From: Novosphingobium sp. 9
GTDB lineage: Bacteria; Pseudomonadota; Alphaproteobacteria; Sphingomonadales; Sphingomonadaceae
DNA length: 64,000 nt
Assembly: GCF_025340265.1 (NCBI RefSeq)
Contig: NZ_CP022708.1
Coordinates: 147,501-211,500 of the forward strand
Direction: 5' to 3'
Below, in pieces: positions 29,089 to 45,954 of the stretch (position 1 is the first letter of the stretch; each line of letters opens with the position of its first letter). The position numbers and the translations under genes were made by a program. The notes under the pieces are model-generated. The model was not told where the DNA came from, searched no databases, and saw only the letters and a program-made list of their open reading frames with translations.

Positions 29089-29225
29089 TTTATTTTAGCA
29101 GTTTACGCCCGAAATCAGAGCGCTGCGGCATCCCACGCAAACCCGCCACATCCCAGGACAGCGATTTGCATTTTGGGGTGCCGATGGGGGTATTATCCAC
29201 TCGCCCAGAATGGATACCCCCAATC

Positions 29226-29626
29226 ATGTCGATCACCGATCTCGAAGCCAGGTACGCCCCCAAGCGTGCGCGTGATTACATGCTCACCGATGGTGGCGGC
29301 CTGCACCTGCTGGTGCGGCCCAACGGCACCAAGCTGTGGCGGATGAAGTACCGCTTTGCCGACAAGGAGAAGCTCCTATCCTTCGGCCCCTATCCCGAGG
29401 TCAGTCCGGCAGATGCGCGACTGCGCCGCGCGGAGGCCAAGCTCGCCCTGCACAGCGTCGAGGCGCGCTCGACGTCAGTCGCCGCCTCAAGCAGCATGTA
29501 AGTCAGATCTATCGCTTTGCGATCCCGCAGGGCTGGGCGGACAAGGATCCGGCCGAGCATCTTACCGACCTGCTCCAGCCCAAGCGACGCGTGCGGCATA
29601 TGGCGCGTGTAGGGGGAGGAGAGCCT
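29226..29626 (+). pseudogene. Tyrosine recombinase (integrase with arm-binding N-domain), internally deleted
   Basis: The ATG at 29226 opens a DUF4102-type arm-binding domain: YMLTDGGGLHLLVRPNGTKLW, RMKYRF and LLSFGPYPEVSPADARLRR. After about 80 residues the frame shifts, and the next recognisable part (SRRLKQHVSQIYRFAIPQGW, then PKRRVRHMARV) belongs to the end of the core-binding domain. About 100 residues between them are missing. The catalytic domain with its R-H-R-Y residues is absent: sequence ends at the IS630 element at 29626. It is a dead integrase marking a former island. Confidence 0.85.
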
Positions 29627-29640
29627 AGAGCGGATTTCGA

Positions 29641-30587
29641 TCAGTCTGGATCATATCCGCAAGAGCTGAAGTAATTGGCGCATTCGGCGGGTTGGAAGAT
29701 GTCGACGAGCTTTCCGATGAGGCTCCACAGACCGCTGACTGTTCGCTCCCCGATTTTCCTTAGGAGGGCCTTGAGGCGGGAGAAAGCCTTCTCGATCGGA
29801 TTGAAGTCCGGGCTGTAGGGCGGAAGGAAGCGCAGTGTCGCACCTGCTGCTTCGATCCGATCCCGGACAGCCGGACGCTTATGGCTCGACAGATTGTCCA
29901 TTATGACGATGTCACCTGGCCGCAGTTCAGGTACGAGAACCTGGGCCACGTAGGCCTCGAACCAATCGCCGTTGATGGGACCGTCCAGTACCATCGGTGC
30001 GACCATGCCCGTCATGCGCAGAGCCGCGACCAGCGTAGTGGTCTTGCGGTGCCCGTGAGGGAAACCCATCCGCAGTCGCTCGCCTTTGGCACAGCGGCCA
30101 TGGCTGCGGGTCATGTTGGTGGCGGTCCAGGTTTCATCGATGAAGACCAGGCGTCCTGGTTCGAGGTCGACCTGCCCCTCGAACCAATCATGCCGCTGCT
30201 TCAGGACGTCGGGACGGTCCTGCTCGATTGCATGGCCAGTCTTTTTTTGCGCGTCATGCCCCGACGTACAAAAAACCGATGAAGTCCCGCTACCGAGACG
30301 ATCAGTCCGGCTGCGGCCAGATCCACCCGTAGTTCTTCCAGCGAAATGTCCTTCCGCGCCTCCCAGACAGCGAGGACTTCCGCCGCTCGTTCCTCGATCC
30401 GGCGCGAACGCACATCACCGCCTTGCGGTTTGGCGGCAAAGGCGCCCGTGTCGCGCCGAAGTGCATGCCAGCGGATCGCCGTCGAGGGGGCAACACCAAA
30501 TCGCGCCGCCGCCGCCCGGCAACTCAATCCGTTATCGATCGCTGCCAAAAGCCGCGAGCGCAAATCCATCGAAAGCGGATGACCCAT
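29641..30587 (-). CDS. IS630-family transposase, made by -1 frameshifting
   Basis: DDE transposase in two phases. The first (30587 to 30201) has the helix-turn-helix domain: MDLRSRLLAAIDNG, CRAAAARFGVAPSTAIRW. The second (to 29641) has the catalytic domain: VFIDETWTATNMTRSHG (first Asp), VIMDNLSSHK (second Asp) and FLPPYSPDFNPIEKAFSRLK (Glu). A run of seven A then G (30248-30241) at the junction is a slippery site: reading back one base gives KKKTGHAIEQDRPDVLKQRH, which joins the domains without loss. IS630 elements are known to use such signals. Without the shift only the DNA-binding part is made. Confidence 0.9.
30241..30248 (-). promoter_or_regulatory. Slippery heptamer for -1 frameshifting (A_AAA_AAG)
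   Basis: CGC AAA AAA AGA in the first phase becomes AAA AAA AAG after a -1 slip, exactly at the point where the two halves of the IS630 transposase join. Confidence 0.75.
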
Positions 30588-30962: not shown

Positions 30963-31298
30963 AGGTTCGCGGTGTGTTGAAATCGTGACGGCATGACGGA
31001 GCCTGCACGCTGGCGTGCCTCATGCGTGAGCACGGGCGGTGCAGGCGGTGTCCTCTGGTCGGTCGCGTGGTTGCGGCTGTCGCAAACTATCCGGTCGATA
31101 ATGCCGATCCGACAGGTCTTTATAATTGTGCAGTGCCCCGTCCGCATTGGCATACAAGGGTGTCAGCTTCTGCCGGTGCCGTGCGTTATGGCTTTTGTAG
31201 AAGAAGCCGGTCTCACTGCAGGAAGAATCTTGTGGGACCGCTAGGCGATGATGTCGACGCAAGCAATGAGGTTAGGTGTGAGCGAACGGAACGCATTT

Positions 31299-32231
31299 AT
31301 GAAGGAAAGGCTGAACAATGTGGTGAACGGACGGCGTCTCGCGATTGATCCGCGGGCACTGATGACCTTTCGCGCAGTTTGTCAGGCGGGCTCGATCAGC
31401 GGAGCTGCACGGGATCTCAATATTTCTCAGCCGTCGGTCTCGAACACCATTGCTTTGCTTGAACGCAGTCTCGGCGCCAGCCTTTTTGCGCGTGGGCGCG
31501 GAGGAATTACGCTGACATCAGAGGGCGAAGCGCTGCAACGTCGGGCAGAGGCCTTGGCAACACTGCTGGTCGACGCTGCTCTTGATATTGATAATGCACG
31601 TCTCGGCATCGCGGGGCCGTTACGCGTTGCAGGAACGCCCGGTGCACTGCTGACACTGTTGCCTGGCGTGATTCCTGAGGTGGAAGCGCAAGTCGGAAAA
31701 TTTTCCCTCAGTGTGCTGGAGCGTGATGATGCTCAATTGCTGGACATGCTGCGAAAGGGGGTGATCGAGTTGGCATTTGTCACCACTCGGATTGAGCAGC
31801 GCCCGGATGACATGGCGGAAGTCACATGCGCGAGCGATCCGTTTTCGCTGGTTGTAGGCGCGCAGCACTTTGATCTGGGCAACGAGATATCCCTGCAAGA
31901 TGCTGCGGCATGGAACTGGGTTCTGCCCGAGGCACGCGGCGCCTTTCGCAGGCAGGTCGATGCGCTGTTCCTTTCGGCGGGGGTGAGCGTGCCACTGACG
32001 GCGATCCGCTGCGATTCGCTGCTGACCACCCGTGCCATCGTTCGCGAGACGGACCGGGTGACGGTGCTGCCGCGTACCGTGGTGGGCGAGGATATCGCCA
32101 ATGGTTCGTTGCGCGCGATCACTATCCGCGAGGCGGAATTCGACAGGAATGTCGGTGTGTTACACCTCGCGAACCAGCCACTTTCACCGCTCGCGCAAGT
32201 GCTGTTCGAGGCCCTGCCAAGGCTGGAGTGA
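31299..32231 (+). CDS. LysR-type transcriptional regulator of the aromatic/glycoside cluster
   Basis: 310 residues from the ATG at 31299; an upstream ATG at 31248 is also possible. The N-terminal winged helix-turn-helix reads ALMTFRAVCQAGSISGAARDL, then NISQPSVSNTIALLERSLG and LFARGRGGITLTSEG. A substrate-binding domain follows (VAGTPGALLTLLPGVIPEVE, VIELAFVTTRIEQRP, WNWVLPEARG). It sits just before the catabolic genes and in the same direction. A perfect T-N11-A palindrome lies in the 122-bp gap between it and the amidohydrolase gene, so it very likely controls that operon in response to a pathway aromatic compound. Confidence 0.93.
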   Translation: MKERLNNVVNGRRLAIDPRALMTFRAVCQAGSISGAARDLNISQPSVSNTIALLERSLGASLFARGRGGITLTSEGEALQRRAEALATLLVDAALDIDNARLGIAGPLRVAGTPGALLTLLPGVIPEVEAQVGKFSLSVLERDDAQLLDMLRKGVIELAFVTTRIEQRPDDMAEVTCASDPFSLVVGAQHFDLGNEISLQDAAAWNWVLPEARGAFRRQVDALFLSAGVSVPLTAIRCDSLLTTRAIVRETDRVTVLPRTVVGEDIANGSLRAITIREAEFDRNVGVLHLANQPLSPLAQVLFEALPRLE

Positions 32232-32245
32232 TCCGGGCCTGCATT

Positions 32246-32264
32246 CCATAGTTACAGACTATGG
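32246..32264. promoter_or_regulatory. LysR-type operator (T-N11-A palindrome)
   Basis: CCATAG-TTACAGA-CTATGG has perfect 6-base arms and contains the classic LysR box ATAG-N7-CTAT, that is T-N11-A. It is 90 bp upstream of the amidohydrolase start and 15 bp after the LysR stop, where an activator site for the catabolic operon is expected. Confidence 0.75.
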
Positions 32265-32353
32265 AGATCGAAATATTCATTATTTTACATGGTATCCGCG
32301 AGGTTTTACACCGGATCAGAACCCAGAACACAAACGATTGGGGTAGAGGAACC

Positions 32354-33589
32354 ATGCGGACACTGATCCGTAACATCACCATCTTCGACGGCACGGGAGC
32401 ACCGCTGCAGCGCGGCCGGGTATTGATCGAGGATGAGCGCATCGCCGATGTCTCGCTGGGCGAGAGCGCCATGCCGGACCTTGCGGCGGATATCGTGATC
32501 GACGGGCGCGGGATGACGCTGATGCCCGGCCTGATCGATGCGCATACGCACCTGACCTGGGCATCCTCGACCGAGAAGGTCTATCACCAGTTCATTCTGC
32601 CGCCGGACGAATTGAAGGTCGCGGCCTGGCGCAACGCGCGCGTGCTGCTCGACCATGGCTATACCAGCCTCTATTCCGCCGGTGCGCTGGGGGACGGCAT
32701 CGAGCCGGAGCTGGCCCGCGCGATCGAGCGGGGCGAGACGCCGGGGCCGCGTCTGGTGCCCTCCACGCTGGAGCGCAGCCCGGAAGGCGGCGAAGGGGTC
32801 GAGACTGGCGACGTGTTCAACGGTCGCGGACCCGATGCGATGCGCGCTTTCGTCGGTTACTGTGCGGACGAAGGGGTGAAGTCGATCAAGCTGGTGGTTT
32901 CGGGCGAGGATGCGCTCAAGCCCAATTCGGCGATGGACGTGCTTTATACCCGCGACGAGATGATGGCGGCGGGCGAGGCAACCCGCGAGGCGGGCCTGTG
33001 GATCGCCTGCCACGTCTATTCGGGCGAGGCGATCGGCCTGGCGCTCGATGCAGGCGCGCGCATCCTCTATCACTGCTCATTCGCAGACGAAGCCGCGATC
33101 GATCGCATGGCGGCTGACAGGGACACCTTCTTCTACGCGCCGGGGCCGGGTGTGTCGGTTGCCGCGCTCGAAGCCAATCCGCCGCCGCATGTCGACATGA
33201 CGCACATGAAGGCCAGCGCGCGGATGCGCCTCGATATCGAGGCCAAGCTGGTGCCCGAACTGAAGAAGCGCGGCGTGCGCATCCTGATCGGTGGCGATTA
33301 CGGTTTCCCGTTCAATCCGCATGGCCGCAATGCCCGCGATCTTGAGCATTTCGTGACCTATTACGGCTTCACGCCGGCAGAGGCGCTCCGCGCCGCAACC
33401 CAGTACGGCGGCGAACTGATGGGGATTGAGACCGGGCTGGTGAAGCAGGGCTATCTTGCCGACCTGCTGCTGGTCGATGGCGATCCGACGCAGGATGTCA
33501 CCATCCTCCAGAACCCTGCCAATATCCGCATGATCATGAAGGACGGCGCGCTCCACAAAGCGCTGACCGAGCCCGAAACCGCGAGCTGA
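32354..33589 (+). CDS. Amidohydrolase-family metal hydrolase
   Basis: Metal-dependent hydrolase, 411 residues from the ATG at 32354 (AGAGGA five bases upstream). It resembles imidazolonepropionase-like members: start LIRNITIFDGTGAPLQRGRVLIEDERI, first metal pair His64 and His66 in GLIDAHTHL, a lysine in SIKLVVSGED that could be a carboxylated ligand, further His in ACHVYSGEA and LYHCSFAD, and Asp in LIGGDYGFPF. The C-terminus has GLVKQGYLADLLLVDGDP. It is the first gene after the operator. In an aromatic pathway it may hydrolyse a ring-fission product or an amide/lactone; the substrate is unknown. Confidence 0.9.
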   Translation: MRTLIRNITIFDGTGAPLQRGRVLIEDERIADVSLGESAMPDLAADIVIDGRGMTLMPGLIDAHTHLTWASSTEKVYHQFILPPDELKVAAWRNARVLLDHGYTSLYSAGALGDGIEPELARAIERGETPGPRLVPSTLERSPEGGEGVETGDVFNGRGPDAMRAFVGYCADEGVKSIKLVVSGEDALKPNSAMDVLYTRDEMMAAGEATREAGLWIACHVYSGEAIGLALDAGARILYHCSFADEAAIDRMAADRDTFFYAPGPGVSVAALEANPPPHVDMTHMKASARMRLDIEAKLVPELKKRGVRILIGGDYGFPFNPHGRNARDLEHFVTYYGFTPAEALRAATQYGGELMGIETGLVKQGYLADLLLVDGDPTQDVTILQNPANIRMIMKDGALHKALTEPETAS

Positions 33590-33593
33590 CCCG

Positions 33594-35120
33594 ATGCAAC
33601 ATGATGTGGTCATCATTGGCTGCGGACCTGTCGGTGCGCTGGCCGCGAACCTCCTCGGCCTGAACGGACTGACCGTTCTGGTGCTGGAAAAGGAGCTGGA
33701 ACATTATCCGCTGCCGCGCGCGGTGCACCTCGATCACGAGATGATGCGCCTGTTCCAGTCCGCCGGCGTTATCGATGCGGTGGAGCCGGACATGGTGGCC
33801 ACTGACGGCCACCTGCACATTGGTGCCGATCATGGCGTCATCCGCTACATGGGGACGGTTGGCCGTCCGCGTCCGTTCGGCTGGGCGAACGATTACTTCT
33901 TTTACCAGCCCGAACTGGAAACGCATCTGCGCGAAGGCATGGCGCGGCTGGATAGCGTTTCGCTCCAGCTGGGCGCGACGTTCCTCGGGCTGGATCAGGA
34001 TGCGGGCGGCGCCACGGTGCGCTATCGGCAGGACGGGCACGAACATGCGGTGCGCACCCGCTGGGTGATTGCCTGTGACGGCGCGCGCAGCACGGTGCGC
34101 AAGGCGATGGGCGTCGCACTCGACGATTTGCGCTTCGAGGAGCCGTGGCTGGTGGTCGATGCCGAGGTCGAGGGCGGCGTCAGCTTCCCGCCGATCTCGG
34201 GCGTGCCTGCCGATGCCGATTTGCAGCGCCTGTCCGTAATGATGTGTGATCCCGCGCGCCCGGCGACGGTTGTTCCGGGACGCCGCGACCATCGTCGCTG
34301 GGAGTTCATGCTGCTGCCCGGCGAGGACGATGCCGAGATGATGCGCCCGGAAAAGGTGCGCGAACTGGTCGGCGCGTGGATGAAGGACGTGCCGCACACT
34401 ATCTTGCGCGCGGCGACCTATCGCTTCCATGGCCTTGTCGCCGAGCGCTGGCAGATGGGCCGGGCGTTTCTGGCGGGCGATGCCGCGCACCAGACGCCGC
34501 CGTTCTTCGGGCAGGGCATGTGCCATGGCCTGCGCGATGTGGCGAACCTAGCCTGGAAGATGGCCGCGATCGCCAATGAGGGGGCTGACGAGGCGATCCT
34601 GGACACCTACCAGCCCGAGCGGGACCCGCATGTTCGCGCGGTGATCGGCGCTGCGGTGAACGCCGGACGCTACATCTGCGAACTCGATCCCGCAAAGGCG
34701 GCAGTGCGCGATGCGGAAATTCGCGAGCGGGCCAGGAGCGGCGAAACCGCGCACGACCTGATCCCCGCCATCGGCGCCGGACTGGTCATGCCCAGCAAGG
34801 GCGCAGGCGCGCGCTTTGTCCAGCCGCTGTTGCAGAACGGCGGTCGGCTCGACGATCTGGCCGGGGGCGGCTGGCGGTTGTTCGTACGCGGATCGGGCGG
34901 TGGGCTGCCTGCGTGCGGGGTCGCGGTGATCGGCGCTGCGCACCTGCCGGATGGCGGCGCGGTAACACGCTGGCTTGACGATCACGAAGCCGACGCGGTG
35001 CTCATACGCCCCGACCACTACGTTTTCGGCACCGAGAAAGGGCGCGGTGCCGCACTGCTGGCCGCCCGGCGCAAGATGCTCTTCGGGAACGCAACAGAAC
35101 ATCAGGAGCAGGCCGCATGA
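33594..35120 (+). CDS. FAD-dependent aromatic monooxygenase, MhpA-like
   Basis: Class A flavin hydroxylase of 508 residues that would add a hydroxyl to a phenolic ring before cleavage. FAD-binding GCGPVGAL (9-16), then LVLEKELEHYPLPRAVHLDHE. The DG motif is in VIACDGARSTVRKAMGV, and the second FAD motif is FLAGDAAHQTPPFFGQGMCHG with Asp296. A thioredoxin-like C-terminal domain follows, as in MhpA and related enzymes. It starts 4 bp after the amidohydrolase stop and overlaps the GlcG-like gene by 4 bp. Its closest functional analogues include 3-(3-hydroxyphenyl)propionate hydroxylase and flavonoid monooxygenases; the true substrate is not visible. Confidence 0.93.
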   Translation: MQHDVVIIGCGPVGALAANLLGLNGLTVLVLEKELEHYPLPRAVHLDHEMMRLFQSAGVIDAVEPDMVATDGHLHIGADHGVIRYMGTVGRPRPFGWANDYFFYQPELETHLREGMARLDSVSLQLGATFLGLDQDAGGATVRYRQDGHEHAVRTRWVIACDGARSTVRKAMGVALDDLRFEEPWLVVDAEVEGGVSFPPISGVPADADLQRLSVMMCDPARPATVVPGRRDHRRWEFMLLPGEDDAEMMRPEKVRELVGAWMKDVPHTILRAATYRFHGLVAERWQMGRAFLAGDAAHQTPPFFGQGMCHGLRDVANLAWKMAAIANEGADEAILDTYQPERDPHVRAVIGAAVNAGRYICELDPAKAAVRDAEIRERARSGETAHDLIPAIGAGLVMPSKGAGARFVQPLLQNGGRLDDLAGGGWRLFVRGSGGGLPACGVAVIGAAHLPDGGAVTRWLDDHEADAVLIRPDHYVFGTEKGRGAALLAARRKMLFGNATEHQEQAA

Positions 35121-35548
35121 AACTGACGCTGAAGAATGCGCGGGTGATCGTCGACGATACGCTTGCCGCCGCGCGCGACAGGGGCGCACAGCCGCTTGCC
35201 GTGATCGTCCTCGACGAAGGCGCGCATCCGATGGCTTTCGCGCGGGAGGACGGGGCCAGTCTGTTCCGTTTCGACATTGCCCGCGCCAAGGCCGCAGGCG
35301 CGCTTGGCATGGGTGCGGATACGGCGGTGCTGGCAGAGCGGGCCAGGGGCAATCCGGTGTTCTTCCAGAGCCTGGCCACGGCGGTCGGCGGCCAGATGGC
35401 GTTCTCGCCCGGCGGTGTGCTCGTGCGCGACGAGAGCGGCACCGTTATCGGCGCGGTGGGCGTCAGCGGCGACACTGGAGAATGCGATGCCGAATGCGCG
35501 GCAGCGGGGATCGCGGCCGCCTTTATCAGGAAGGGAATCTGCTCGTGA
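35117..35548 (+). CDS. GlcG/HbpS-family (DUF336) protein
   Basis: 143-residue GlcG-fold protein: ARVIVDDTLAAARDRG, PLAVIVLDEGAHPMAFAREDG, FDIARAKAAGALGMG and the conserved end GVLVRDESGTVIGAVGVSGDT with DAECAAAGIAA. Members bind haem or small ligands and recur in glycolate and aromatic catabolic operons, usually with unknown function. Here it is sandwiched between the monooxygenase and the dioxygenase with overlaps at both ends (ATGA and GTGA), which points to a role in the same step, for example as an accessory protein or isomerase. Confidence 0.9.
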   Translation: MKLTLKNARVIVDDTLAAARDRGAQPLAVIVLDEGAHPMAFAREDGASLFRFDIARAKAAGALGMGADTAVLAERARGNPVFFQSLATAVGGQMAFSPGGVLVRDESGTVIGAVGVSGDTGECDAECAAAGIAAAFIRKGICS

Positions 35549-36441
35549 CCATCCGTCTGCGCAGCATCGAACTGGCGCTGCCCGATCCGGCAGCGGCAGC
35601 GGCGTTCATGACCGGCATCTGGGGCATGGCCGAGGCCGGAGAGCAGGGCGGCACGCGCTATCTGCGCGGTTCCGGCCCGTTCCCCTACCTCGTCGCGCTG
35701 GAGCCTTCGGAAAGCGAGTTTGTGCGCACGACGACCTTCGTGTGCGATGCGGCTGACCTTGCCGCGCTGTCAGCGCGGGTGAGCGAGGCGGGGTGGACGG
35801 CGGCGCCTGTTACCTCGTCCGATCCGGGCGGTGGCCATGGCCTGCTGGTCGAGCTGCCCGAGGGCGTGCTGCTGCGCTTTCTCGTCGACGCAGCGGAAGT
35901 TGCGCCGATCGCGGGCAAGGACCTGCCGGTCAAGCTCACGCATGTGGTGTTCAACGCAGCGGATGCGGAAGGGTGCGGCGATGCCGTGGAGCAGGTGCTC
36001 GGCTTCCGCGTGTCGGACCGTACCAAGGGTATGGTTTTCGTGCGCTGCAACGACAGCCACCATTCCACCGCCTTTGCTCGCGCTGGGTTCACCTCGCTCA
36101 ACCACGTCGCTTTCGAGATGGAGGATATCGACGCGGTGATGCGCGGCATCGGCCGCTTGCGCGATCATGCGCAGGTGCCTGCCTGGGGACCGGGCCGCCA
36201 TGGGCCGGGTGCCAATGTCTATGCCTATTACATCGCGCCGTTCGGCCCGGTGATCGAGTTCTCCACGGCGGTCGAGAAGGTGGCCGAGGACTATCGGGTC
36301 GGTGCGCCGGATGACTGGACCTGGCCTGAAGGCCGGATCGACCAGTGGGGCATGTCGGACAAGGATTTCGAGGGCTTGCGCCGCGCCGAGGAGCGCTTCC
36401 GCTTCCGGCGCGACTGGGAGCCTGCGCCGCTGGGCGCCTGA
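35545..36441 (+). CDS. Type I extradiol ring-cleavage dioxygenase (VOC family)
   Basis: Cleaves a catecholic ring next to its hydroxyl groups using Fe(II). The start is a GTG at 35545 overlapping the previous stop (GTGA), with AGGAAGGGA upstream; 298 residues. Two VOC modules. By pattern with BphC-type enzymes the metal ligands are His133 (KLTHVVF), His219 (GPGRHGPG) and Glu239 (PVIEFS), and the catalytic His is His187 (SLNHVAFE). All are present, so it should be active. A longer frame from 34975 is only overlap with upstream genes. It follows the hydroxylase and precedes the FAH-type hydrolase, giving the usual hydroxylation, cleavage, hydrolysis order. Confidence 0.92.
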   Translation: MTIRLRSIELALPDPAAAAAFMTGIWGMAEAGEQGGTRYLRGSGPFPYLVALEPSESEFVRTTTFVCDAADLAALSARVSEAGWTAAPVTSSDPGGGHGLLVELPEGVLLRFLVDAAEVAPIAGKDLPVKLTHVVFNAADAEGCGDAVEQVLGFRVSDRTKGMVFVRCNDSHHSTAFARAGFTSLNHVAFEMEDIDAVMRGIGRLRDHAQVPAWGPGRHGPGANVYAYYIAPFGPVIEFSTAVEKVAEDYRVGAPDDWTWPEGRIDQWGMSDKDFEGLRRAEERFRFRRDWEPAPLGA

Positions 36442-36470
36442 ATGCAGCATTTGCGAAGAAAGAGACGGAC

Positions 36471-37304
36471 ATGACGCAGTACATCAGCTTCAAGCGCCCT
36501 GACGGCACCGCCAGCTTCGGCCGCCTTGAAGGCGGGACGGTGCACGATCTGGGCGCGCCCGGTGGCGATGCATGGTTGAAGGATGCGCTCGGCGGCGATC
36601 TGGCGGCTCTGGCTGTCACCGGCGAGTATGCGCGCGCCGAGGTTACGCTGCTGCCGGCGGTGCCCAACCCCGAGAAGATCCTGTGCGTGGGCCTGAACTA
36701 TGCCACCCACGTTGCCGAGACCGGGCGCGAGCAGAAGGATCATCCCGCGATCTTCACCCGCTGGGCCGACAGCCTGATCGCCGATGGTGAGCCGATGGTC
36801 CGTCCGCCCGAAAGCGAGCGTTTCGACTACGAGGGTGAACTCGCCATCGTGATCGGCAAGCCGGGGCGTCGCATTTCCAAGGCTGATGCGATGGATCACA
36901 TCGCCGGTTATGCGGTGTTCAACGACGGCTCGATCCGCGACTGGCAGCGCCACAACATCCAGTTCACGCCGGGCAAGACCTGGCCCGGCACCGGCGCCTT
37001 CGGTCCGGCGATGATCCCGGCGCACGAGGTGTCCGATCTCACTTCGCTGCGGGTGCAGACGCGCCTCAACGGCGAACTGCTGCAGGACCAGCCGATCTCG
37101 GACCTGATCTGGGATATTCCGACGGTGATCGAATACTGCTCCACTTTCACCACCCTCAATCCCGGTGACGTAATCGCCACCGGTACACCGGGCGGTGTCG
37201 GCGACAAGCGCAAGCCGCCGCTCTACATGAAGGCGGGTGACACCGTGGAAATATCGGTCGGGCCGATCGGGACTTTGACCAATCCGGTAATCGACGAAAT
37301 CTGA
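36471..37304 (+). CDS. Fumarylacetoacetate hydrolase family protein
   Basis: Cytoplasmic hydrolase or hydratase for ring-fission products, 277 residues from the ATG at 36471. FAH-fold motifs: KILCVGLNYATHVAETG, FDYEGELAIVIGK with metal ligands Glu121 and Glu123, the third ligand Asp152 in GYAVFNDGSIRDWQ, then KTWPGTGAFGPAMIP and GDVIATGTPGGVGDKRKPP. It starts 29 bp after the dioxygenase. The expected job is C-C bond hydrolysis or hydration of the meta-cleavage product. The family also includes oxaloacetate decarboxylases and hydratases, so the exact reaction is open. Confidence 0.92.
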   Translation: MTQYISFKRPDGTASFGRLEGGTVHDLGAPGGDAWLKDALGGDLAALAVTGEYARAEVTLLPAVPNPEKILCVGLNYATHVAETGREQKDHPAIFTRWADSLIADGEPMVRPPESERFDYEGELAIVIGKPGRRISKADAMDHIAGYAVFNDGSIRDWQRHNIQFTPGKTWPGTGAFGPAMIPAHEVSDLTSLRVQTRLNGELLQDQPISDLIWDIPTVIEYCSTFTTLNPGDVIATGTPGGVGDKRKPPLYMKAGDTVEISVGPIGTLTNPVIDEI

Positions 37305-37368
37305 ATTTTCGCCCTTCAATACTCAAAACTCAAAAAACAAACCAAATACCTGTCAGGGAGAACAGACC

Positions 37369-39642
37369 ATGCAAAAGACTGGGCAAAAGACCAGGCAATT
37401 CGCTCTGCTGTGCGGCGTCGCGGTTTCGGCTTTCGGCGTTCCGGCCATGGCGCAGGACGCCACCAGCGCCGAACCCGCCGCTGCTGCACCGCCGCCGTCG
37501 GAAATCATCGTCACCGCGCAGCGCCGCGCCGAAAAGGTGACGGAAGTTCCGATCTCGATCACCGTCGCCAGCGCCGCGCAGCTTGAGCGCCAGCAGGTGA
37601 ATACCGTGAACGATCTGGCCCGCATTGCGCCGAGCCTCGAGATTCAGGCGGCGCCGGGCCAGAACACCGGTGGCGGCGGTTCGATCCGCGGCATCGGCAC
37701 GATGACCTTTTCGCCAGGCGCGGTGGCTTCGGTGGGCGTGGTCGTCGATCAGGTCAGCCAGGGCAACGCCAATATTTCCGATCTGTTCGACGTTGCCCGT
37801 GTCGAGGTGCTGAAAGGCCCGCAGGGCACCCTGTTCGGCCTGACCACTTCTGCGGGCGTCATCAACATCACCACCAACGCGCCCAAGTTCGGCGAGTTTT
37901 CCGCCCGCGTGCGCACCGAACTGTCGAACGCGGGAACCGCCGGTGCCAAGTACGGCAATCAGGTGGTGCAGGGCGTCGTCAATATTCCGATCTCGTCCAA
38001 CATGGCCGCGCGCATTTCCGGCGTTGCCAACTTGCGTCAGGGCGTGGACCGCAATGCCACGACTGGCGATCTCAACGACAACAACCGCTATTCGGTGCGC
38101 GGCCGCCTGCTGTGGGAGCCGACCGATCGCCTGACCGTGAACCTGATCGGCGACTATGCGCATTCCAGCGCGGAGAACGGCGGCGACTTCTTCACCTTCA
38201 TCAAGACCAGTGGCCCCGGCTCGTTCTTCGGCGGCGCGGGCTATGACGCGGTGGGCATCACCGATCGCCTCGCCAGCTGCGGTGTGACCGTGAAGGAGGG
38301 CAACCGCGACTACTGCACCAGTTCGCACTACAAGGGCACGACGAGCAACTACGGCGGGTCGGTGCAGGTGGACTATGCCGCCGATCCCTTCACACTGACC
38401 TCAATCACCGCCTATCGCAAGTCGGGCGAACTGGGCTCTGGCGCCTCTTCCAACGTCTTCCGTGGCGATCCGCTGGAATTGCAGGTGGAAAACGAACCGG
38501 TTGATCGCAACCTGAACCTCTTTACGCAGGAATTCCGCGTCAGTTCGGCAGCCACCAACACTATCGAATATACCGTGGGGGCGTTCTATTCGAACCAGAA
38601 GCAGAATCGCGATCCCGAGACGGTGAACGTCACGCTGGTTCCGGCGGAAAATGTTGTGATCCCGATCGCCTCTACGACGGTTCCCGCGCTGACGATCCGC
38701 GATGAATCGCTGGCGTTCTTCGGGCAGGCGACCACGCACATCGGGGATTCTCTGCGCCTCATCACCGGCACGCGCTACACCACCGATCGTTTGTCGCTGC
38801 AGATGCCGAGCACTGCCGATACCGTGCTCAATGCCGAGGAATGGTCGTGGCGTCTGGGCGCGCAATACGATCTGGCGCGCAACACGATGGCCTATGCCAC
38901 CGTTTCGCGCGGCTTCAAGGGTGGCCAGATCGCGGTGCCGACCGATGGCCGCACGCCCTATGTCGTCCTGCCGGAAATCCCGACCAGCTACGAAGTGGGC
39001 TTCAAGTCCACGCTGTTCGGCGGCTGGGTGGCCGATGTCAGTGCGTTCTACATGAAGATCGACAACTTCCAGGCGCAGAGCTGCACCGTGGATGGAACCG
39101 GCGTGATCTCGTGCGACCAGAAGAACGTGAACGGCGTGAAGACGCGCGGCGTCGAGGTGAATTTCTTCGGCAACATCACCCCGAACCTCTCGCTCAACAC
39201 CGGCTTCATCTATGCCAAGGCGACCTATCCCAAGGGCTATCTCGGCACCGACGGCACGGACATCGGCGGCAGCCAGCTGGCCTATTCGCCCCGCTACAAG
39301 TTCACGCTTTCGGGTGAATACACCGTTCCGATCGGCGAGCGTCTGGGCGCTTTCCTGGCAGCGGATACCGTGTGGAAGTCGCGCATCCGCTATGAGGAGA
39401 ATTCCTATTCGGGCACGACTTTCCGCCCGCACTGGATGGTCGGCGGCCGGATGGGGCTGCGAACGCAGGACCAGCGTTATCAGGTCTCGGTCTTCGTGCG
39501 AAACCTGTTCAACGTGCATGAGCCGTCGCTGATGCAGAGCAGCTTCCCCTATACGACGGACAGCGGCGAGGCGAATGTCGGGGCGATCTATGGCCCGCAG
39601 TCGTTCCGCAACGTCGGCATCAGCCTCGATGCCAAGTTCTGA
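37369..39642 (+). CDS. TonB-dependent receptor (aromatic/glycoside cluster)
   Basis: Outer-membrane active importer, 757 residues. Signal peptide ending MAQDA near residue 26. TonB box region EIIVTAQRRAEKVTEVPISI, plug domain with ARIAPSLEIQAAPGQ, SIRGIGT, VEVLKGPQGTLFG and GVINITTNAP. A barrel with SRGFKGGQI and VRNLFNVHEPS ends in a terminal Phe (SLDAKF). AGGGAGA lies before the ATG. The shorter length and VTAQRRAE box match receptors of the kind used in sphingomonads for aromatic and small plant ligands. It sits between the ring-cleavage genes and the glycosidases, so its cargo is probably the intact phenolic glycoside. Confidence 0.95.
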   Translation: MQKTGQKTRQFALLCGVAVSAFGVPAMAQDATSAEPAAAAPPPSEIIVTAQRRAEKVTEVPISITVASAAQLERQQVNTVNDLARIAPSLEIQAAPGQNTGGGGSIRGIGTMTFSPGAVASVGVVVDQVSQGNANISDLFDVARVEVLKGPQGTLFGLTTSAGVINITTNAPKFGEFSARVRTELSNAGTAGAKYGNQVVQGVVNIPISSNMAARISGVANLRQGVDRNATTGDLNDNNRYSVRGRLLWEPTDRLTVNLIGDYAHSSAENGGDFFTFIKTSGPGSFFGGAGYDAVGITDRLASCGVTVKEGNRDYCTSSHYKGTTSNYGGSVQVDYAADPFTLTSITAYRKSGELGSGASSNVFRGDPLELQVENEPVDRNLNLFTQEFRVSSAATNTIEYTVGAFYSNQKQNRDPETVNVTLVPAENVVIPIASTTVPALTIRDESLAFFGQATTHIGDSLRLITGTRYTTDRLSLQMPSTADTVLNAEEWSWRLGAQYDLARNTMAYATVSRGFKGGQIAVPTDGRTPYVVLPEIPTSYEVGFKSTLFGGWVADVSAFYMKIDNFQAQSCTVDGTGVISCDQKNVNGVKTRGVEVNFFGNITPNLSLNTGFIYAKATYPKGYLGTDGTDIGGSQLAYSPRYKFTLSGEYTVPIGERLGAFLAADTVWKSRIRYEENSYSGTTFRPHWMVGGRMGLRTQDQRYQVSVFVRNLFNVHEPSLMQSSFPYTTDSGEANVGAIYGPQSFRNVGISLDAKF

Positions 39643-39692
39643 AGCCCCAGGTTCTGAAGCGACTGCCTGAAACGACCGGAGAGAAACCGACG

Positions 39693-40568
39693 ATGACCGG
39701 ACCCCAACCCGCCGAAATCCGCAGGGCCATCATGGCGATGGGCAGCGGGATGGGGCCGCAGGTCGTGGCGGCGTGCCGCGACCTGTTCGCCGCCGAACAG
39801 CAGGGGCTGGCCGAGAAGATCGCTCCGGTGGCGCTCGATTGCGCCTATGGCGATGATGCGCGCCATCGGCTCGACCTCTATCGCGATAGTGAGCATGAGG
39901 GCCTTCCCGTCCTGCTGTTCGTCCATGGCGGCGGTTTCCTGATGGGTGACAAGGGGGGCGAGGGCTCGCAGAGCGGCTGGTCGAGCGCCCATATCGGGCG
40001 CTGGGCCGCAGCCAACGGCATGCTGGGCGCAGTGATGAACTATCGCCTTGCGCCCGATCACCAATGGCCAGCCGGGGCGCAGGACGTCGGCGCCGCAGTG
40101 GCATGGCTGCGCGAAAATGCTGCGCAGCATGGCGGCGATCCGGCGCGGATCGTGGTGATGGGCACGTCGGCGGGGGCGGTGCATGTCGCGGGCTTCCTGC
40201 GCGACGATCCGCACCATGCCGATCTCGTGAAAGCGGCGATCCTGCTGTCCGGGCTCTACGGATTCACCCCTCTCGATGACCGGGACGAGCGCTATTACGG
40301 GCCTCAGGCGGATTACGCATCCCGCATGCCGCTGGGGGCTGTCGTTGCGACCGGTCTACCGCTCTACCTCGCCGGGGCGCAGTACGATCCGCCGCGCTTC
40401 CAGCGGGAGTGGGCCGGGCTGATGCAGGCGCGTTTGGAGCGCCACGGCACTCTGCCGCGCGGCTATCTCGCCAGCGGGCACACCCACTACACACTGCCGA
40501 TGCATCTTGGCACTTCGGACACGCGCCTGTCCGATGAGCTTCTCACCTTCCTTTCTGACACCCTGTGA
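39693..40568 (+). CDS. Alpha/beta-hydrolase esterase (HSL/BD-FAE type)
   Basis: Esterase of 291 residues with no signal peptide. Oxyanion motif FVHGGGF (77-82), nucleophile Ser159 in VVMGTSAGAVHVAG and catalytic His in LASGHTHYTLP (around 268); an Asp lies in the expected region between. Alternative starts include Met14. Placed between the receptor and the beta-glucosidase, it may remove acyl groups (acetyl, malonyl, feruloyl) from acylated glycosides, which is an inference. Confidence 0.9.
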   Translation: MTGPQPAEIRRAIMAMGSGMGPQVVAACRDLFAAEQQGLAEKIAPVALDCAYGDDARHRLDLYRDSEHEGLPVLLFVHGGGFLMGDKGGEGSQSGWSSAHIGRWAAANGMLGAVMNYRLAPDHQWPAGAQDVGAAVAWLRENAAQHGGDPARIVVMGTSAGAVHVAGFLRDDPHHADLVKAAILLSGLYGFTPLDDRDERYYGPQADYASRMPLGAVVATGLPLYLAGAQYDPPRFQREWAGLMQARLERHGTLPRGYLASGHTHYTLPMHLGTSDTRLSDELLTFLSDTL

Positions 40569-40579
40569 AAGAGGCCGAT

Positions 40580-41929
40580 ATGACCGAGAATTTCCGGATG
40601 GACCGCCGTGCGTTGCTGGCCGTCGGCGCAGGAGCAGGGGCGCTTGCAGGGCTTGCGCCTTTGAGCGCAAGGGCTGCGGCAAAGGCGGCTGTAGCGAAAG
40701 CATCCACGCCATTTCCCAAAGGCTTCTTCTGGGGCGCCGCGACGGCACCGCATCAGGTCGAGGGGAACAACATCGCCTCGGACCTGTGGTTCCTCGAACA
40801 TCAGCAACCGACCGTCTTTGCCGAGCCTTCGGGCGATGCGGTGAACAGTCTGGAATTGTGGCCGACCGATCTCGATATCGTGAAGGGGCTGGGCCTCAAC
40901 AGCTATCGCTTCGGCATCGAGTGGGCACGGATCGAGCCGGAGAAGGGCCTGATCTCGCGCGGGATGCTCGATCACTACAAGGCGATGGTGGCCGGGTGCC
41001 GGGATCGCGGGATCGCGCCACTGGTGACGTTCAATCATTTCACCGCGCCGCGGTGGTTCAGCGCAATGGGCGGCTGGACCAATCCCGACGCGCCTGCGCT
41101 TTTCGCGAACTACTGCGACAAGGTCGCCCGCGCGATCGGCGCCGATATCGGCATGGCGATGACGCTGAACGAGCCGAACATCCTGCTGCTGCTGCGCAAG
41201 ATCCTGCCGCCGCCGGTATGGGACGCGCAGCGCGCCACCGTGCAGGCCGCCGCCAAGCGTCTGGGCGTCGCGAGGTTCGTCTGCGCCAATGTGGCCGGGC
41301 CAGAGGATATCGACGCCATCGAGCATGGCCTTGCCGCCGGGCACAAGGCGGCGCGCGCGGCGATCAAGGCAGTGCGCGGCGATCTGCCGGTGGGCTTTAC
41401 GCTCTCGATCATCGACGAGGAGGCGGCGGGCAAGAACTCGCTGCGCGATGCCGTTCGCCAAGAGCTGTATGGCATGTGGCTGGAGATCGCGAAGGGCGAC
41501 GATTTCATCGGCGTGCAGAACTACGAACGCGCGGTCTGGAACGACAAGGGGCGTCTTCCGGCACCGGACGGTGCGGATCGCAACTGGTCGGGAACCGAGG
41601 TCTATGCGCCCTCGCTCGCCGGGGCTGTGAAGTACGCCCATGAAGCAACCGGCGTGCCGATCCTGGTTTCGGAGCATGGCGTCGGCACGGACGACGACAC
41701 GCTCCGCGCCCGCTTCATTCCGGCGGCGTTGCGCGATTTGCGGCAGGTGATGGCCGATGGCGTGCCGGTGCTGGGCTATGTGCACTGGTCGCTGCTCGAC
41801 AACTACGAGTGGATCTTCGGGTACAAGCCGCATTTCGGGCTGTGCAGTGTCGACCGCGAGACTTTCGTACGGACGCCCAAACCCAGCGCGCGGGTGCTGG
41901 GGGCGATCGCCGCGCGCGGATCGATCTAG
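40580..41929 (+). CDS. GH1 beta-glucosidase, exported
   Basis: 449 residues from the ATG at 40580 (AGAGG upstream). A GTG at 40565 that overlaps the previous stop is an alternative start. The N-terminus is a twin-arginine-like signal (RMDRRALLAVGAGAGAL), so it is periplasmic. GH1 motifs: FPKGFFWGAATAPHQVEG, SYRFGIEWARIEP, the acid/base Glu198 in TLNEPN, the nucleophile Glu365 in ILVSEHG and VHWSLLDNYEW near the end. It would remove beta-glucose left on a flavonoid after the rhamnosidase acts. Confidence 0.93.
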   Translation: MTENFRMDRRALLAVGAGAGALAGLAPLSARAAAKAAVAKASTPFPKGFFWGAATAPHQVEGNNIASDLWFLEHQQPTVFAEPSGDAVNSLELWPTDLDIVKGLGLNSYRFGIEWARIEPEKGLISRGMLDHYKAMVAGCRDRGIAPLVTFNHFTAPRWFSAMGGWTNPDAPALFANYCDKVARAIGADIGMAMTLNEPNILLLLRKILPPPVWDAQRATVQAAAKRLGVARFVCANVAGPEDIDAIEHGLAAGHKAARAAIKAVRGDLPVGFTLSIIDEEAAGKNSLRDAVRQELYGMWLEIAKGDDFIGVQNYERAVWNDKGRLPAPDGADRNWSGTEVYAPSLAGAVKYAHEATGVPILVSEHGVGTDDDTLRARFIPAALRDLRQVMADGVPVLGYVHWSLLDNYEWIFGYKPHFGLCSVDRETFVRTPKPSARVLGAIAARGSI

Positions 41930-41940
41930 GTCTTGTCGCG

Positions 41941-41960
41941 GGCTGGCGGTTGCGCCAGCC
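41941..41960 (+). other. Perfect hairpin between the GH1 and GH106 genes
   Basis: GGCTGGCG-GTTG-CGCCAGCC is a perfect 8-bp stem with a 4-base loop 11 bp after the GH1 stop. No T-run follows, so it is more likely an mRNA processing or stability element than a terminator. Confidence 0.5.
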
Positions 41961-42029
41961 TGATGATCGCAGAAGAAAATATCGGCCAAAGCCTGCAACG
42001 GGCGGGGCTGGAAAAATCGGGAGTTGGAA

Positions 42030-45000
42030 ATGTCGCGCAGGCGCTTTCGGATCATGCTTTGTCTCGCCAGTGGCCTTGTCGCCGCGCCCGTTCTGGCGGG
42101 GGAGCCTGCCACCTCGGGAAGCGCGCAGGCACCTGCCGCCACCGACAGCGTACTGGCGCAGGAGTTCCGCGATCCCCCGGCCTCTGCCCGCCCGCGCGTG
42201 TGGTGGCACTGGATGAACGGCAACATCACCAAGGATGGCATCGCCAAGGATCTGGCGTGGATGAAGTCCGTCGGTATCGGCGGTGTCCAGAATTTCGATG
42301 CCAATCTCCAGACCCCGCAGATCGTGGACAAGCGGCTGGCCTATATGACGCCTGAGTGGAAGGATGCCTTTCGCTTCGCGGTGCAGGAAGCGGACCGGCA
42401 GGGGCTGGAGTTTGCCATCGCCTCCTCGCCCGGCTGGTCGGAGACCGGCGGGCCGTGGGTCGCGCCCAAGGATGGCATGAAGAAGCTGGTCTGGTCGAGC
42501 GTCTCGCTCGCATCGGGGCAGCGACTGACCGGTGCGCTGCCCGCGCTGCCTGGCACGACCGGCCCCTTTCAGGACCTGCATCCTGCGCTCGGCATCGAGG
42601 AAATGATTTCCGGGCACCCTGCGCCCGCGGCGGGGCATTTCACCGGGAGTGGCCCGGTTCTGGCCTATTCGGTCTCCGAGGTGGCGGCATTGCCCATGCC
42701 TCAGGCGCACGACGGGCTGGGCAACGCGCTCGCCGCCGGTGCGCTGTCGGACAGCGATCTCGGCGCGGGGTCACGCTGGCGCGCAAGGACGGCACCGCGC
42801 CGGTGCTGCGGCTGGACTATCCGAAAGCCGTGACGATGCGCAGCGTCACGCTGTTCTTGCCGGACGTCGTAATTCCCTTTTCGGGTTCACCATTTCTTGC
42901 CGCTGTGGAGGCGAGCGAGGATGGCACGACCTGGACCAAGATCACCGACCTTACGCTCAGCGGTGTACCCACGACGGCCAGCTTTCCGGCGGTGACGGCT
43001 GCGCATTTCCGTGTCGTTCTGAACCCTGCGCCACTTCATGGCGGGCTGGGCTCTCCGGCACCGGGTGTGGCGATGGGGGGGCTGTTCGACGGCATCGGCG
43101 CGGCTATGGCGAAGAAGCCCCTGATCGTCGGCACTTTCGCGCTCACGTCGCAAGCGCGGGTGGACCGGTTCGAGACCAAGGCCGGTTTCGTGATGAGCCC
43201 GGACTATTATGCGCTGGGATCGGTGAACGATGCCGTACGTGGTATCGATGCCGCGAAGGTCATCGACCTGACGGACCGGGTGAAAGCGGATGGCACGCTT
43301 GACTGGACCGCGCCAAAGCTCCCCAAAGGGCAGTACTGGCAGGTCCTGCGGCTCGGCTGGTCGCTGCTGGGCACGACCAATCACCCGGCGACACCCGAGG
43401 CGACCGGTCTGGAAGTCGACAAGTACGACGGCAAGGCGGTGGAGGCCTATCTCGACCATTATCTGGGCATGTATCGCGAGACGGTGGGCGATGGCCTGAT
43501 CGGCCAGCACGGCATCCGTGCACTGCTGACGGACTCGATCGAGGCGGGCGAGGCGAACTGGACGCCGCAGATGATCGCGAAATTCCGGGCCTTGCGCGGC
43601 TATGACCCCACGCCCTGGCTACCCGCGCTGACCGGTGTTCTCGTCGGCTCGCGTGAGGATACCGATCGCTTCCTCTACGATTATCGCCGCACACTGGCAG
43701 ACCTGCTGGCCAGCGAGCACTACGGCACTATCGCGCGCGTTGCCCATGCCAACGGCCTCAAGCTCTATGGCGAGGCGCTGGAGGATCATCGCCCGATGCT
43801 GGGCGACGACATGACCATGCGCAGCCACACCGATGTGCCGATGGCGGCGATGTGGGCGTTCAACAAGGCCGAGGGGCCGCGCCAGTCGCTGGTCGCCGAC
43901 ATCAAGGGCGCTGCCTCGGTTGCGCACCTTTACGGGCAGAACCTTGTCGCGGCGGAATCGATGACCTCGCAGATGGCGCCCTGGGCTTTTGCGCCGAAGG
44001 ATCTGAAGCACGTTATCGATCTGGAGTTCGTGACCGGCGTCAACCGCCCGGTGGTGCATACCTCGGTCCATGTCCCGGTGGATGACAAGAAGCCGGGCCT
44101 CTCGTTGTTTATCTTCGGGCAGTACTTCAACCGGATGGAGAGCTGGTCCGGCATGGCGAAGCCGTGGGTGGATTATATCTCGCGCTCCTCGCTGATGTTG
44201 CAGCAAGGGCGCAACGTGGCCGATCTGGCCTATTTCCATGGCGAGGAGGCGCCGCTGACCTCGCTCTATGGCGATAAGCCGGTCGCCGACGCGCCTGTTA
44301 CCCATGCCTATGATTTCCTGAACTTCGATGCTCTGAACACGCTGCTGACCAATGACGGGACCGATGTCGTGACGCCCGCAGGCGCGCGTTATCGCGCGAT
44401 CTATCTCGGCGGTTCGTCCAGCCGGATGACGCTGGCGGCGCTGCGTCGCCTGTCCGCTCTCGTTGAGGGCGGGGCGACGGTGATCGGCGAGAAACCGCAG
44501 CTTTCGCCCAGCCTCGTCGCCAGTGAGCAGGGCGAGGGCGCGCAGTGGATGAGCCTTGTCGACCGGCTGTGGCCGGGTGGCGGGCAGGCCATGATCGGCA
44601 AGGGCCGGGTTATCGCCTCGCACGACGTGGAAGGCGCGCTTGCGGGGATGGGCGTCGCGCCCGATTTCCGCTTCACCGGGGCCGCGGCGGGCGTGGCCAT
44701 CCCCTTCGTCCATCGCCGCGACGACAAGGGCGATATCTATTATCTCTCGAACCCGGCCGACACCGCGCAGACCATCGAGGCGCATTTCCGCGTGACCGGA
44801 AAGCGCCCCGAACTGTGGCACCCCGAGACCGGAACGTCCGAGCCGGTAAGTTACCGGATCGTCGAGGGCGAGACGATCGTGCCGCTCTCGCTCACCGCCG
44901 ATGACGCCGTCTTCGTGGTGTTCCGCGAACCGACCACGCAGGCTGGCTTTACCGTGCCCACGCCGGTTTCGCATGCCCTGGCGGGTGATCTCGACAGTGG

Positions 45001-45460
45001 CTGGAAGGTCGCCTTCCAGCCGGATCGCGGCGCTCCGGTATCAGCGAACCTGCCCCGGCTGGGTTCGTTGAGCGAAAGCGCCGATCCGGGTATCAAATAT
45101 TTCTCCGGTGTGGCGACCTATTCGCGCCGCTTCACAGTCCCCGCGTCACACAAGGCCGGCACGCCCTTGTGGCTTGACCTTGGGCAGGTCGGCGATCTGG
45201 CTGCGGTTCGGGTCAACGGTGTCGCGGTCGGCACCGTCTGGCATGCGCCTTACCGGCTGGATATCGGCAAGGTGGTGAAGGCGGGCGCCAACACGCTGGA
45301 GGTGCAGGTCGCCGATACCTGGGTCAATCGCCTGATCGGTGATGCCCAACCCGGCGCGAAGGCGATCACCTGGACGGCGATGCCGACTTATCGTGCCGAT
45401 GCGCCGCTGCGACCCTCCGGCCTTATCGGTCCGGTGCGCCTGTGGGAGGAAGGGAAGTGA
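42030..45460 (+). CDS. GH106 alpha-L-rhamnosidase, secreted; one probable frameshift
   Basis: Releases terminal L-rhamnose from rutinosides and similar glycosides. ATG at 42030, preceded by GGGAG; signal peptide ending VLAGE near residue 24. GH106 pattern: RPRVWWHWMNGNITKDGI, DLAWMKSVGIGGVQNFD, LEFAIASSPGWSETGGPW, HGIRALLTDSIEAGEANW and GEALEDHRPMLGDDMTMR. The C-terminus has sugar-binding beta domains (WLDLGQVGDLAAVRVNG). The frame breaks at the G4 run 42767-42770; one extra G gives LGAGVTLARKDGTAP and a single 1143-residue protein, normal for the family. Characterised GH106 enzymes include one from Novosphingobium sp. PP1Y (from memory). It overlaps the next gene by 4 bp. Confidence 0.88.
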
Positions 45461-45954
45461 GCGAGACGAGTGTTCTGCCGGTCGAGCCGGGCGCGATCTC
45501 TGCGTCCGACTTCATCCGCCGCGAGACGTTGACCAGTGTGGCGATCAACACCGTCCTCAGTCTGGCCTTTTTTCTCGTGGTGTTTCGTCTGGAGGCGCGA
45601 GTGCCGGTCTGGGGCCTTGGCAACCTCGTTTTCGATACTCTGCCGCAGAGCTTCATGATCACGCTGATGGGGGTACTGGTGCCGGGTCTGATAGCGCGCG
45701 CAAAGCGGCAGGCAGGCAAGGTTGAGGCGTTATCGGAGCGCTCGATCCTGCCGTATTCGCCATGGGTACGTGCGATCGCGATGGCGCTGGTCTCGGCGCT
45801 GGTCTGTTCGGCAATCGCGCTGGCGATATTCGCTGCCTTGGGCTGGCAGGACGTGAACTGGTGGTGCGCATTGGGTGGCAAGCTGGTTTTCGGTGCCATG
45901 CTGGCACTGGTTGTAACGCCTGTAGGTCTTCGGGCAGCACTGGTCCCACGGTGA
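45457..45954 (+). CDS. Small integral membrane protein of unknown function
   Basis: 165 residues from a GTG at 45457 that overlaps the GH106 stop (GTGA) with a strong GGAGGAAGGG upstream. Four hydrophobic segments: INTVLSLAFFLVVF, FMITLMGVLVPGLI, IAMALVSALVCSAIALAIFA and KLVFGAMLALVVTPVG. I do not recognise a family. Tight coupling to the rhamnosidase suggests a role tied to this locus, perhaps transport or membrane anchoring, but nothing in the sequence proves that. Confidence 0.75.
   Translation: MSETSVLPVEPGAISASDFIRRETLTSVAINTVLSLAFFLVVFRLEARVPVWGLGNLVFDTLPQSFMITLMGVLVPGLIARAKRQAGKVEALSERSILPYSPWVRAIAMALVSALVCSAIALAIFAALGWQDVNWWCALGGKLVFGAMLALVVTPVGLRAALVPR

Follow-up and report, generated by a model that had tools for sequence, protein, structure and literature searches.

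A conserved LysR-linked locus of Novosphingobium sp. 9 with a predicted role in growth on a phenolic rhamno-glucoside

The gene run and its products

The window (the whole stretch of 64,000 nucleotides that was analysed) lies on contig C2 (1.385 Mb) of the Novosphingobium sp. 9 genome (4.39 Mb, two contigs). It contains a run of eleven genes on the + strand, from 31248 to 45954, and each gene listed here is an ORF at the position given:

31248-32231, +, LysR-family regulator, the first gene of the run (PF00126 and PF03466 above cut-off)
32232-32353, +, gap with a conserved TATTTT element, a possible LysR operator/promoter and a ribosome-binding site (alignment of 56 gaps, including that of the window)
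32354-33589, +, amidohydrolase (Amidohydro_1, Xaa-Pro dipeptidase/ochratoxinase-like; Pfam above cut-off; no export signal seen)
33594-35120, +, class A FAD monooxygenase of the MhpA-like subfamily (PF01494; NF004829, 483 bits, cut-off 390)
35117-35548, +, HbpS/GlcG-like protein (PF03928 above cut-off)
35545-36441, +, type I extradiol (VOC) ring-cleavage dioxygenase (PF00903; motifs; match to 3b59)
36471-37304, +, FAH-family hydrolase/isomerase (PF01557, 225 bits; nearest to HpaG-type enzymes)
37369-39642, +, TonB-dependent receptor with a signal-peptide-like N-terminus (PF00593, PF07715)
39693-40568, +, HSL-type alpha/beta hydrolase, an esterase (PF20434/PF07859; HGGG and GTSAG motifs; no export signal seen)
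40580-41929, +, GH1 beta-glucosidase with a Tat-like signal (PF00232; TLNEP and SEHG motifs)
42024-45460, +, GH106 alpha-L-rhamnosidase, in two parts because of a frameshift near 42770 (42024-42833, N part; ~42770-45460, C part)
45442-45954, +, small hydrophobic protein (ORF)

The original prediction, made from the sequence alone, had named these genes in this order on one strand. The ORFs lie where it had placed them, the Pfam cut-offs are passed and the catalytic motifs are present. The stop/start overlaps that it had reported were also found at several junctions (35117-35120, 35545-35548, 45442-45460 and, with the first of the GH1 starts, 40565-40568), suggesting that the run is an operon. 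A motif check and an alignment with 3b59 confirm the key residues claimed for the dioxygenase: the ligand motifs of H133, H187 and E238 are kept, giving the two His and one Glu iron ligands of a type I extradiol enzyme, as are the catalytic His and Tyr motifs. The GH1 protein has both the acid/base (TLNEP) and the nucleophile (SEHG) motifs in addition to PF00232; the nucleophile motif of GH1 enzymes is usually TENG. The N-termini of the GH1 and GH106 proteins are both twin-arginine-like when judged by eye, which would fit the removal of sugars in the periplasm that had been proposed. The small hydrophobic protein matched no Pfam or NCBIfam family, and the nine proteins that it matched in a large protein search include one that its source calls MHYT domain-containing. 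None of the products of the run was recognised as an inner-membrane carrier for the aglycone.

The gap between the LysR and amidohydrolase genes is 78-145 bases long in the 56 aligned gaps (window included). It carries an A/T-rich element that ends in TATTTT and is conserved in at least 90% of them. An operator had been predicted here; the conserved element is there, and it is a plausible candidate for the LysR operator.

Just to the left of the run (29166-30587) are remnants of mobile elements, namely a piece of a DDE_3 transposase and two items judged by eye, an ORF with a helix-turn-helix and an N-terminal piece resembling an integrase. The left part of the window (2212-24405) holds other sugar genes: an OprB porin, an aldo/keto reductase, an alpha-galactosidase, a GH3 enzyme, a TonB receptor, a ROK protein and a GH2 glucosaminidase-like enzyme.

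Conservation in relatives and linkage to glycosidases

Named genomes were scanned with the window monooxygenase and the best 80 of 105 loci were kept. These 80 are from Novosphingobium, Sphingobium, Sphingomonas, Caulobacter, Alteromonas, Marinomonas and others, and the monooxygenases nearest to that of the window are from Novosphingobium. At least 9 kb was available on each side of the monooxygenase in 67 of the 80 (the full-flank set), where the presence of each gene was scored with its own identity threshold, the loosest being that for the TonB receptor (25%). The counts were FAH 67, VOC 63, HbpS 63, esterase 62, amidohydrolase 60, TonB receptor 59, GH1 57, LysR 56, GH106 44 and small protein 38. 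The locus is common among relatives. All of the loci with GH106 also have GH1, and neither glycosidase was present in 10 of the 67. Five Sphingomonas loci (L070, L074, L076, L079 and L082) lack the VOC gene of the run; ahead of LysR, on the other strand, they have a divergent VOC gene (40-42%).

The FAH, VOC and HbpS genes are retained in all 10 glycosidase-free loci, the esterase and amidohydrolase in 7 each, the TonB receptor in 6 and LysR in 4; the last two are found in 53 and 52, respectively, of the 57 loci with glycosidases. Because the esterase is kept in 7 of these 10 loci, it belongs with the ring block rather than with the sugar genes. In Massilia, an amidohydrolase of the Amidohydro_2 family (with 54% kin in Rhizobium) takes the place of the window's enzyme, which hints that the amidohydrolase step may be a single reaction performed by replaceable enzymes. 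A receptor dedicated to the locus had been described. The TonB receptors of the relatives, however, split into two dissimilar clusters, each of 30 loci (position confirmed in part of the loci), perhaps tuned to different glycosides, and the wording therefore needs care.

The linkage of the ring genes to GH106 was counted in two samples. In the genus sample (149 genomes) the monooxygenase was matched in 65; an identity of 63% or higher was required of orthologs, which left 45. The other 20 (41-46%) were counted as negative, and 8 of them have GH106. A GH106 gene is present in 43/45 genomes with an ortholog vs 29/104 others (odds ratio 56; Fisher p about 1e-15, uncorrected for kinship), and in 51/65 vs 21/84 if all matched genomes are taken as positives. 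It lies within 17 kb of the monooxygenase in 30 of the 45, and GH1 lies within 7.2 kb in 31, all GH106 matches but only part of the GH1 matches having been used in this count. In the remaining 15 genomes GH106 is off the monooxygenase's contig; 2 of these have no GH106 at all and, of the other 13, two are assembled into 2 and 4 contigs. The family sample (249 genomes) gave 16 matches to the monooxygenase, of which 6 reached 64% identity and were used. All 6 have GH106 vs 19/243 of the others (Fisher p about 6e-7, again uncorrected for kinship), within 10 kb in five and on separate contigs in the sixth.

The position of GH106 relative to the ring genes varies. Of the 44 full-flank loci that have it, 28 carry it downstream and 10 upstream on the same strand; in reversed orientation it is downstream in 4 and upstream in 2. 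A quick tree was made of 68 monooxygenases, with good support for 25 of 64 inner branches, and on it the five arrangement states (one of them 'none', for loci that lack GH106 within about 10 kb) need a minimum of 17 changes, the mean for shuffled states being 32. Presence or absence needs 15 changes, 9 of which are forced by well-supported branches. The four classes of orientation and position and the 17 or more changes argue for repeated re-association of GH106 with the ring block. Given these changes and the genus counts, the ring-cleavage block and the glycosidases are joined not by chance. This supports the proposal that the sugar and aromatic halves form one functional unit; the search for co-occurrence in sphingomonad genomes that had been suggested along with it has thus been run, and independent, random association was not seen. 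The accompanying statement that such halves are normally not joined was too strong, since a monooxygenase ortholog lies within 17 kb of GH106 in 30 of the 149 genus genomes.

Proposed function and alternative readings

The counterpart of the locus in Novosphingobium sp. PP1Y is on the Mpl plasmid, with a GH106 gene directly upstream of LysR. The C part of that GH106 matches PDB 6q2f with 2029 bits over 890 residues and is in practice the same protein; the C part of the window GH106 matches 6q2f with 1435 bits. We take 6q2f to be RHA-P, the characterised rhamnosidase of PP1Y. RHA-P is active on the flavonoid glycosides naringin and rutin. The available text of PMC10591481 has nothing on PP1Y; that of PMC6828813 describes RHA-P as a characterised GH106 rhamnosidase from this strain.

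The gene families and motifs of the run, the conserved linkage of the ring block to the glycosidases and the match of the PP1Y GH106 to 6q2f suggest that this is a LysR-controlled, conserved locus for growth on a phenolic rhamno-glucoside, a reading to which we give a probability of about 0.65. Several observations weigh against it: the GH106 frame is broken in the assembly, neither glycosidase is within reach in 10/67 loci, GH106 is off the monooxygenase's contig in 15/45 genus genomes, the genome has no match above cut-off to NF053535 (a rhamnose-pathway hydrolase) and no aglycone carrier was recognised in the run. In its favour, the genome also has four matches to LigA (protocatechuate cleavage) and one to rhaM.

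The TonB receptor would bring the glycoside across the outer membrane. In the periplasm, GH106 would cut off the rhamnose and GH1 the glucose, both the export of these enzymes and the order of the two steps being predicted. The aglycone, or a fragment of it, would then pass into the cytoplasm through a carrier other than the recognised products of the run. There the FAD monooxygenase may hydroxylate the ring beside an existing hydroxyl to give a catechol, which the VOC enzyme would open by extradiol cleavage. The FAH enzyme, the esterase-like hydrolase and the amidohydrolase would hydrolyse the product towards central metabolites, the amidohydrolase possibly acting on a lactone or ester. We infer the roles of the amidohydrolase, the esterase, the HbpS-like protein and the LysR operator.

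An analogy with naringenin breakdown in Herbaspirillum had been drawn for the ring enzymes. Hydroxylation in that Fde system is described as the work of the FAD monooxygenase FdeE together with the Rieske protein FdeD (PMC8552027). No Rieske protein was found beside the window monooxygenase: Pfam showed none among the ten run proteins scanned, and a Massilia Rieske query matched only itself in a tblastn search of the window and a set of related loci. A Massilia plasmid carries two sets of genes near each other, the first with an amidohydrolase, a VOC enzyme, an FAH enzyme and an MhpA-like monooxygenase, and the second an FMO (374 aa)-VOC-Rieske triad that from its make-up is probably the Fde counterpart. 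The window monooxygenase is 43% identical to the MhpA-like enzyme (both NF004829) and 26% identical to the triad FMO, which belongs to NF005313 and served as a stand-in for FdeE. The genome's own kin of the triad FMO (44%) is at C2:621378-622421 and adjoins a second VOC gene (C2:620453-621268), this pair being ~440 kb from the run. The window monooxygenase is therefore unsupported as an ortholog of FdeE, for which the pair at C2:620-622 kb fits better, and the Herbaspirillum analogy is a loose one.

The region around this pair (C2:612-630 kb, outside the window) holds genes for an FAH enzyme, a cyclase, an alpha/beta hydrolase, a VOC enzyme, a 371-aa FAD monooxygenase, a LysR regulator, a GMC oxidoreductase, an MFS-like ORF, a Gfo/Idh oxidoreductase and a TIM-barrel protein with 635 bits to PDB 8ro4 (2-hydroxy-3-keto-glucal hydratase). 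By its gene content it looks like oxidative sugar removal joined to the Fde-like pair.

The best-known substrates of GH106 enzymes are flavonoid diglycosides. Because of GH106, a flavonoid remains likely as the aglycone; the ring enzymes give no such pointer. We infer that a flavonoid is the most likely class, with a phenylpropanoid or coumarin next. In the latter case the ring block could be a route of the hcdABC type for a hydroxyphenylpropionate derived from a coumarin or phenylpropanoid glycoside. In Pseudomonas mandelii 7HK4, a class A FAD hydroxylase, a type I extradiol dioxygenase and an FAH hydrolase are encoded in one operon, hcdABC, which acts on 3-(2,4-dihydroxyphenyl)propionate from 7-hydroxycoumarin (PMC6222606), and the same three enzyme classes are adjacent in the window. 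The score of the window monooxygenase above the NF004829 (MhpA-like) cut-off and the separate, more Fde-like pair in the genome are consistent with such a route. However, HcdA, HcdB and HcdC are described as having no substantial homology to the Mhp enzymes of Escherichia coli (PMC6222606), so the MhpA-like match of the window enzyme does not point to HcdA, and the likeness is at the level of enzyme class. In addition, GH106 is best known from flavonoid diglycosides. BT_0986, another member, acts on pectin (PMC6828813). The available text on hcd mentions no neighbouring sugar genes. We consider an aglycone other than a flavonoid doubtful, though with a modest chance of being correct.

A second alternative concerns GH106 itself. 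The original prediction had taken it as a plain single gene and missed a frameshift near 42,770. The PF17132 profile matches in two pieces (765 and 248 bits, above cut-off), and profile positions 2-166 and 176-743 match in different frames, the N part in that of 42024-42833 and the C part in that of the ORF whose end is at 45460. Between ~42,700 and 42,850 there is also a change in which frame is richest in GC at third positions. In each of the seven relatives with matches on either side of the break the frame stays the same, and no sign of a programmed frameshift was seen there. It could be argued that GH106 is a true pseudogene in this strain and that the locus now serves for glucosides only: the frameshift is present in the assembled sequence, and GH1 occurs without GH106 within about 10 kb in 13/67 full-flank loci. 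However, the C part still has the catalytic glutamate motifs, with TDSIE, YGEALE and AAESMT stretches opposite those of BT_0986, E593 included, and so retains the active-site glutamates of BT_0986 and RHA-P. E561 of BT_0986 is not conserved in the window GH106; nor is it in RHA-P (PMC6828813).

Moreover, the assembly looks indel-prone. Frameshift-like breaks were called where overlapping frames coincide with a switch in codon usage, this stricter detector having replaced an earlier one (87 events) that also caught ordinary gene junctions. The genome has 16 such breaks in 0.50 Mb (32 per Mb), including that in GH106, over the window, 20 spaced pieces and two more chosen on other grounds. The 80 related loci have 4 in 1.61 Mb (2.5 per Mb), a rate ~13 times lower, although the choice of these controls by a good monooxygenase match may be slightly to their advantage. 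Other such breaks are, for example, near position 8067 of L124 (C2:612000-630000) and near 2327 and 14110 of L133. The difference in rate makes an assembly error the likely cause of the GH106 frameshift, and a true pseudogene is improbable.

Alternatively, a block for phenolic acids and a general block for plant sugars could lie side by side with no relation between the two halves. The ring genes of Massilia, Alloyangia and N. aromaticivorans have no annotated glycosidases within 10-14 kb, 10/67 loci lack both GH1 and GH106, and the left part of the window has other sugar genes. This is very unlikely, however, in view of the strong co-occurrence in the genus and family samples, the repeated re-association on the monooxygenase tree and the ring genes of Rhizobium brockwellii, which adjoin a GH3 enzyme and sugar ABC transporter genes. 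Finally, a role for the FAH enzyme in L-rhamnose breakdown rather than ring cleavage can be given almost no chance: diketo-deoxyrhamnonate hydrolase is its second-best NCBIfam match and the genome has no better match to that family, but the score (151 bits) is far below the cut-off of 500 and FAH stays with VOC in all 10 glycosidase-free loci.

Returning to growth on a phenolic rhamno-glucoside, plant-associated sphingomonads encounter phenolic glycosides, and a conserved locus in which uptake, deglycosylation and ring cleavage are linked would be a genetic marker for their use. It would also be a native setting for GH106 rhamnosidases, which are of biotechnology interest, and a source of enzymes whose chemistry merits study (the monooxygenase, the amidohydrolase and the HbpS-like protein). 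A broader proposal is that sphingomonads have an uptake-to-ring-cleavage system for rhamnosylated phenolics with a non-Fde ring route (MhpA-like monooxygenase, type I dioxygenase, FAH enzyme and exchangeable amidohydrolase), that C2:612-630 kb is a second route with an Fde-like pair and oxidative (3-keto) sugar removal, and that phenolic glycosides are divided between these two complete routes. This is possible but tentative, and falls short of being probable.

Comparison with known systems

A description of the whole locus, or of its PP1Y counterpart as a whole, was not found in the literature searched, whose coverage leaves out most subscription journals. In the fde operon of Herbaspirillum seropedicae, for naringenin, an FAD monooxygenase is followed by a glyoxalase-type dioxygenase, as in the window, and the A-ring is cleaved (PMC11303751, PMC8552027, PMC11069340). 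In contrast with the window, FdeE acts together with a Rieske protein and no glycosidases are named in the available text; the window monooxygenase also differs in subfamily from the Massilia triad FMO used as the FdeE stand-in. The inducible ifc cluster of Variovorax, for isoflavones, likewise has an FAD monooxygenase, a glyoxalase-type dioxygenase and an alpha/beta hydrolase (PMC11069340), its putative glyoxalase being 66% identical to FdeC (PMC8552027, PMC11069340). It differs in having cupins, and the accessible parts of its description name no rhamnosidase or FAH enzyme (PMC11069340).

The mhp pathway for 3-hydroxyphenylpropionate shares the monooxygenase subfamily NF004829 with the window. 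MhpB, however, is a type III dioxygenase, whereas the window dioxygenase is a type I VOC enzyme. The window ring block is like hcdABC in enzyme class; the description of that operon, in the text available, names neither glycosidases nor a TonB receptor (PMC6222606). Finally, the PP1Y locus differs from that of the window in the upstream position of its GH106 gene and in its TonB receptor and small hydrophobic protein, which are only 28% and 32% alike, respectively. It has in common with the window GH106, LysR, the amidohydrolase, the monooxygenase, HbpS, VOC, FAH, the esterase and GH1, at 63-79% identity.
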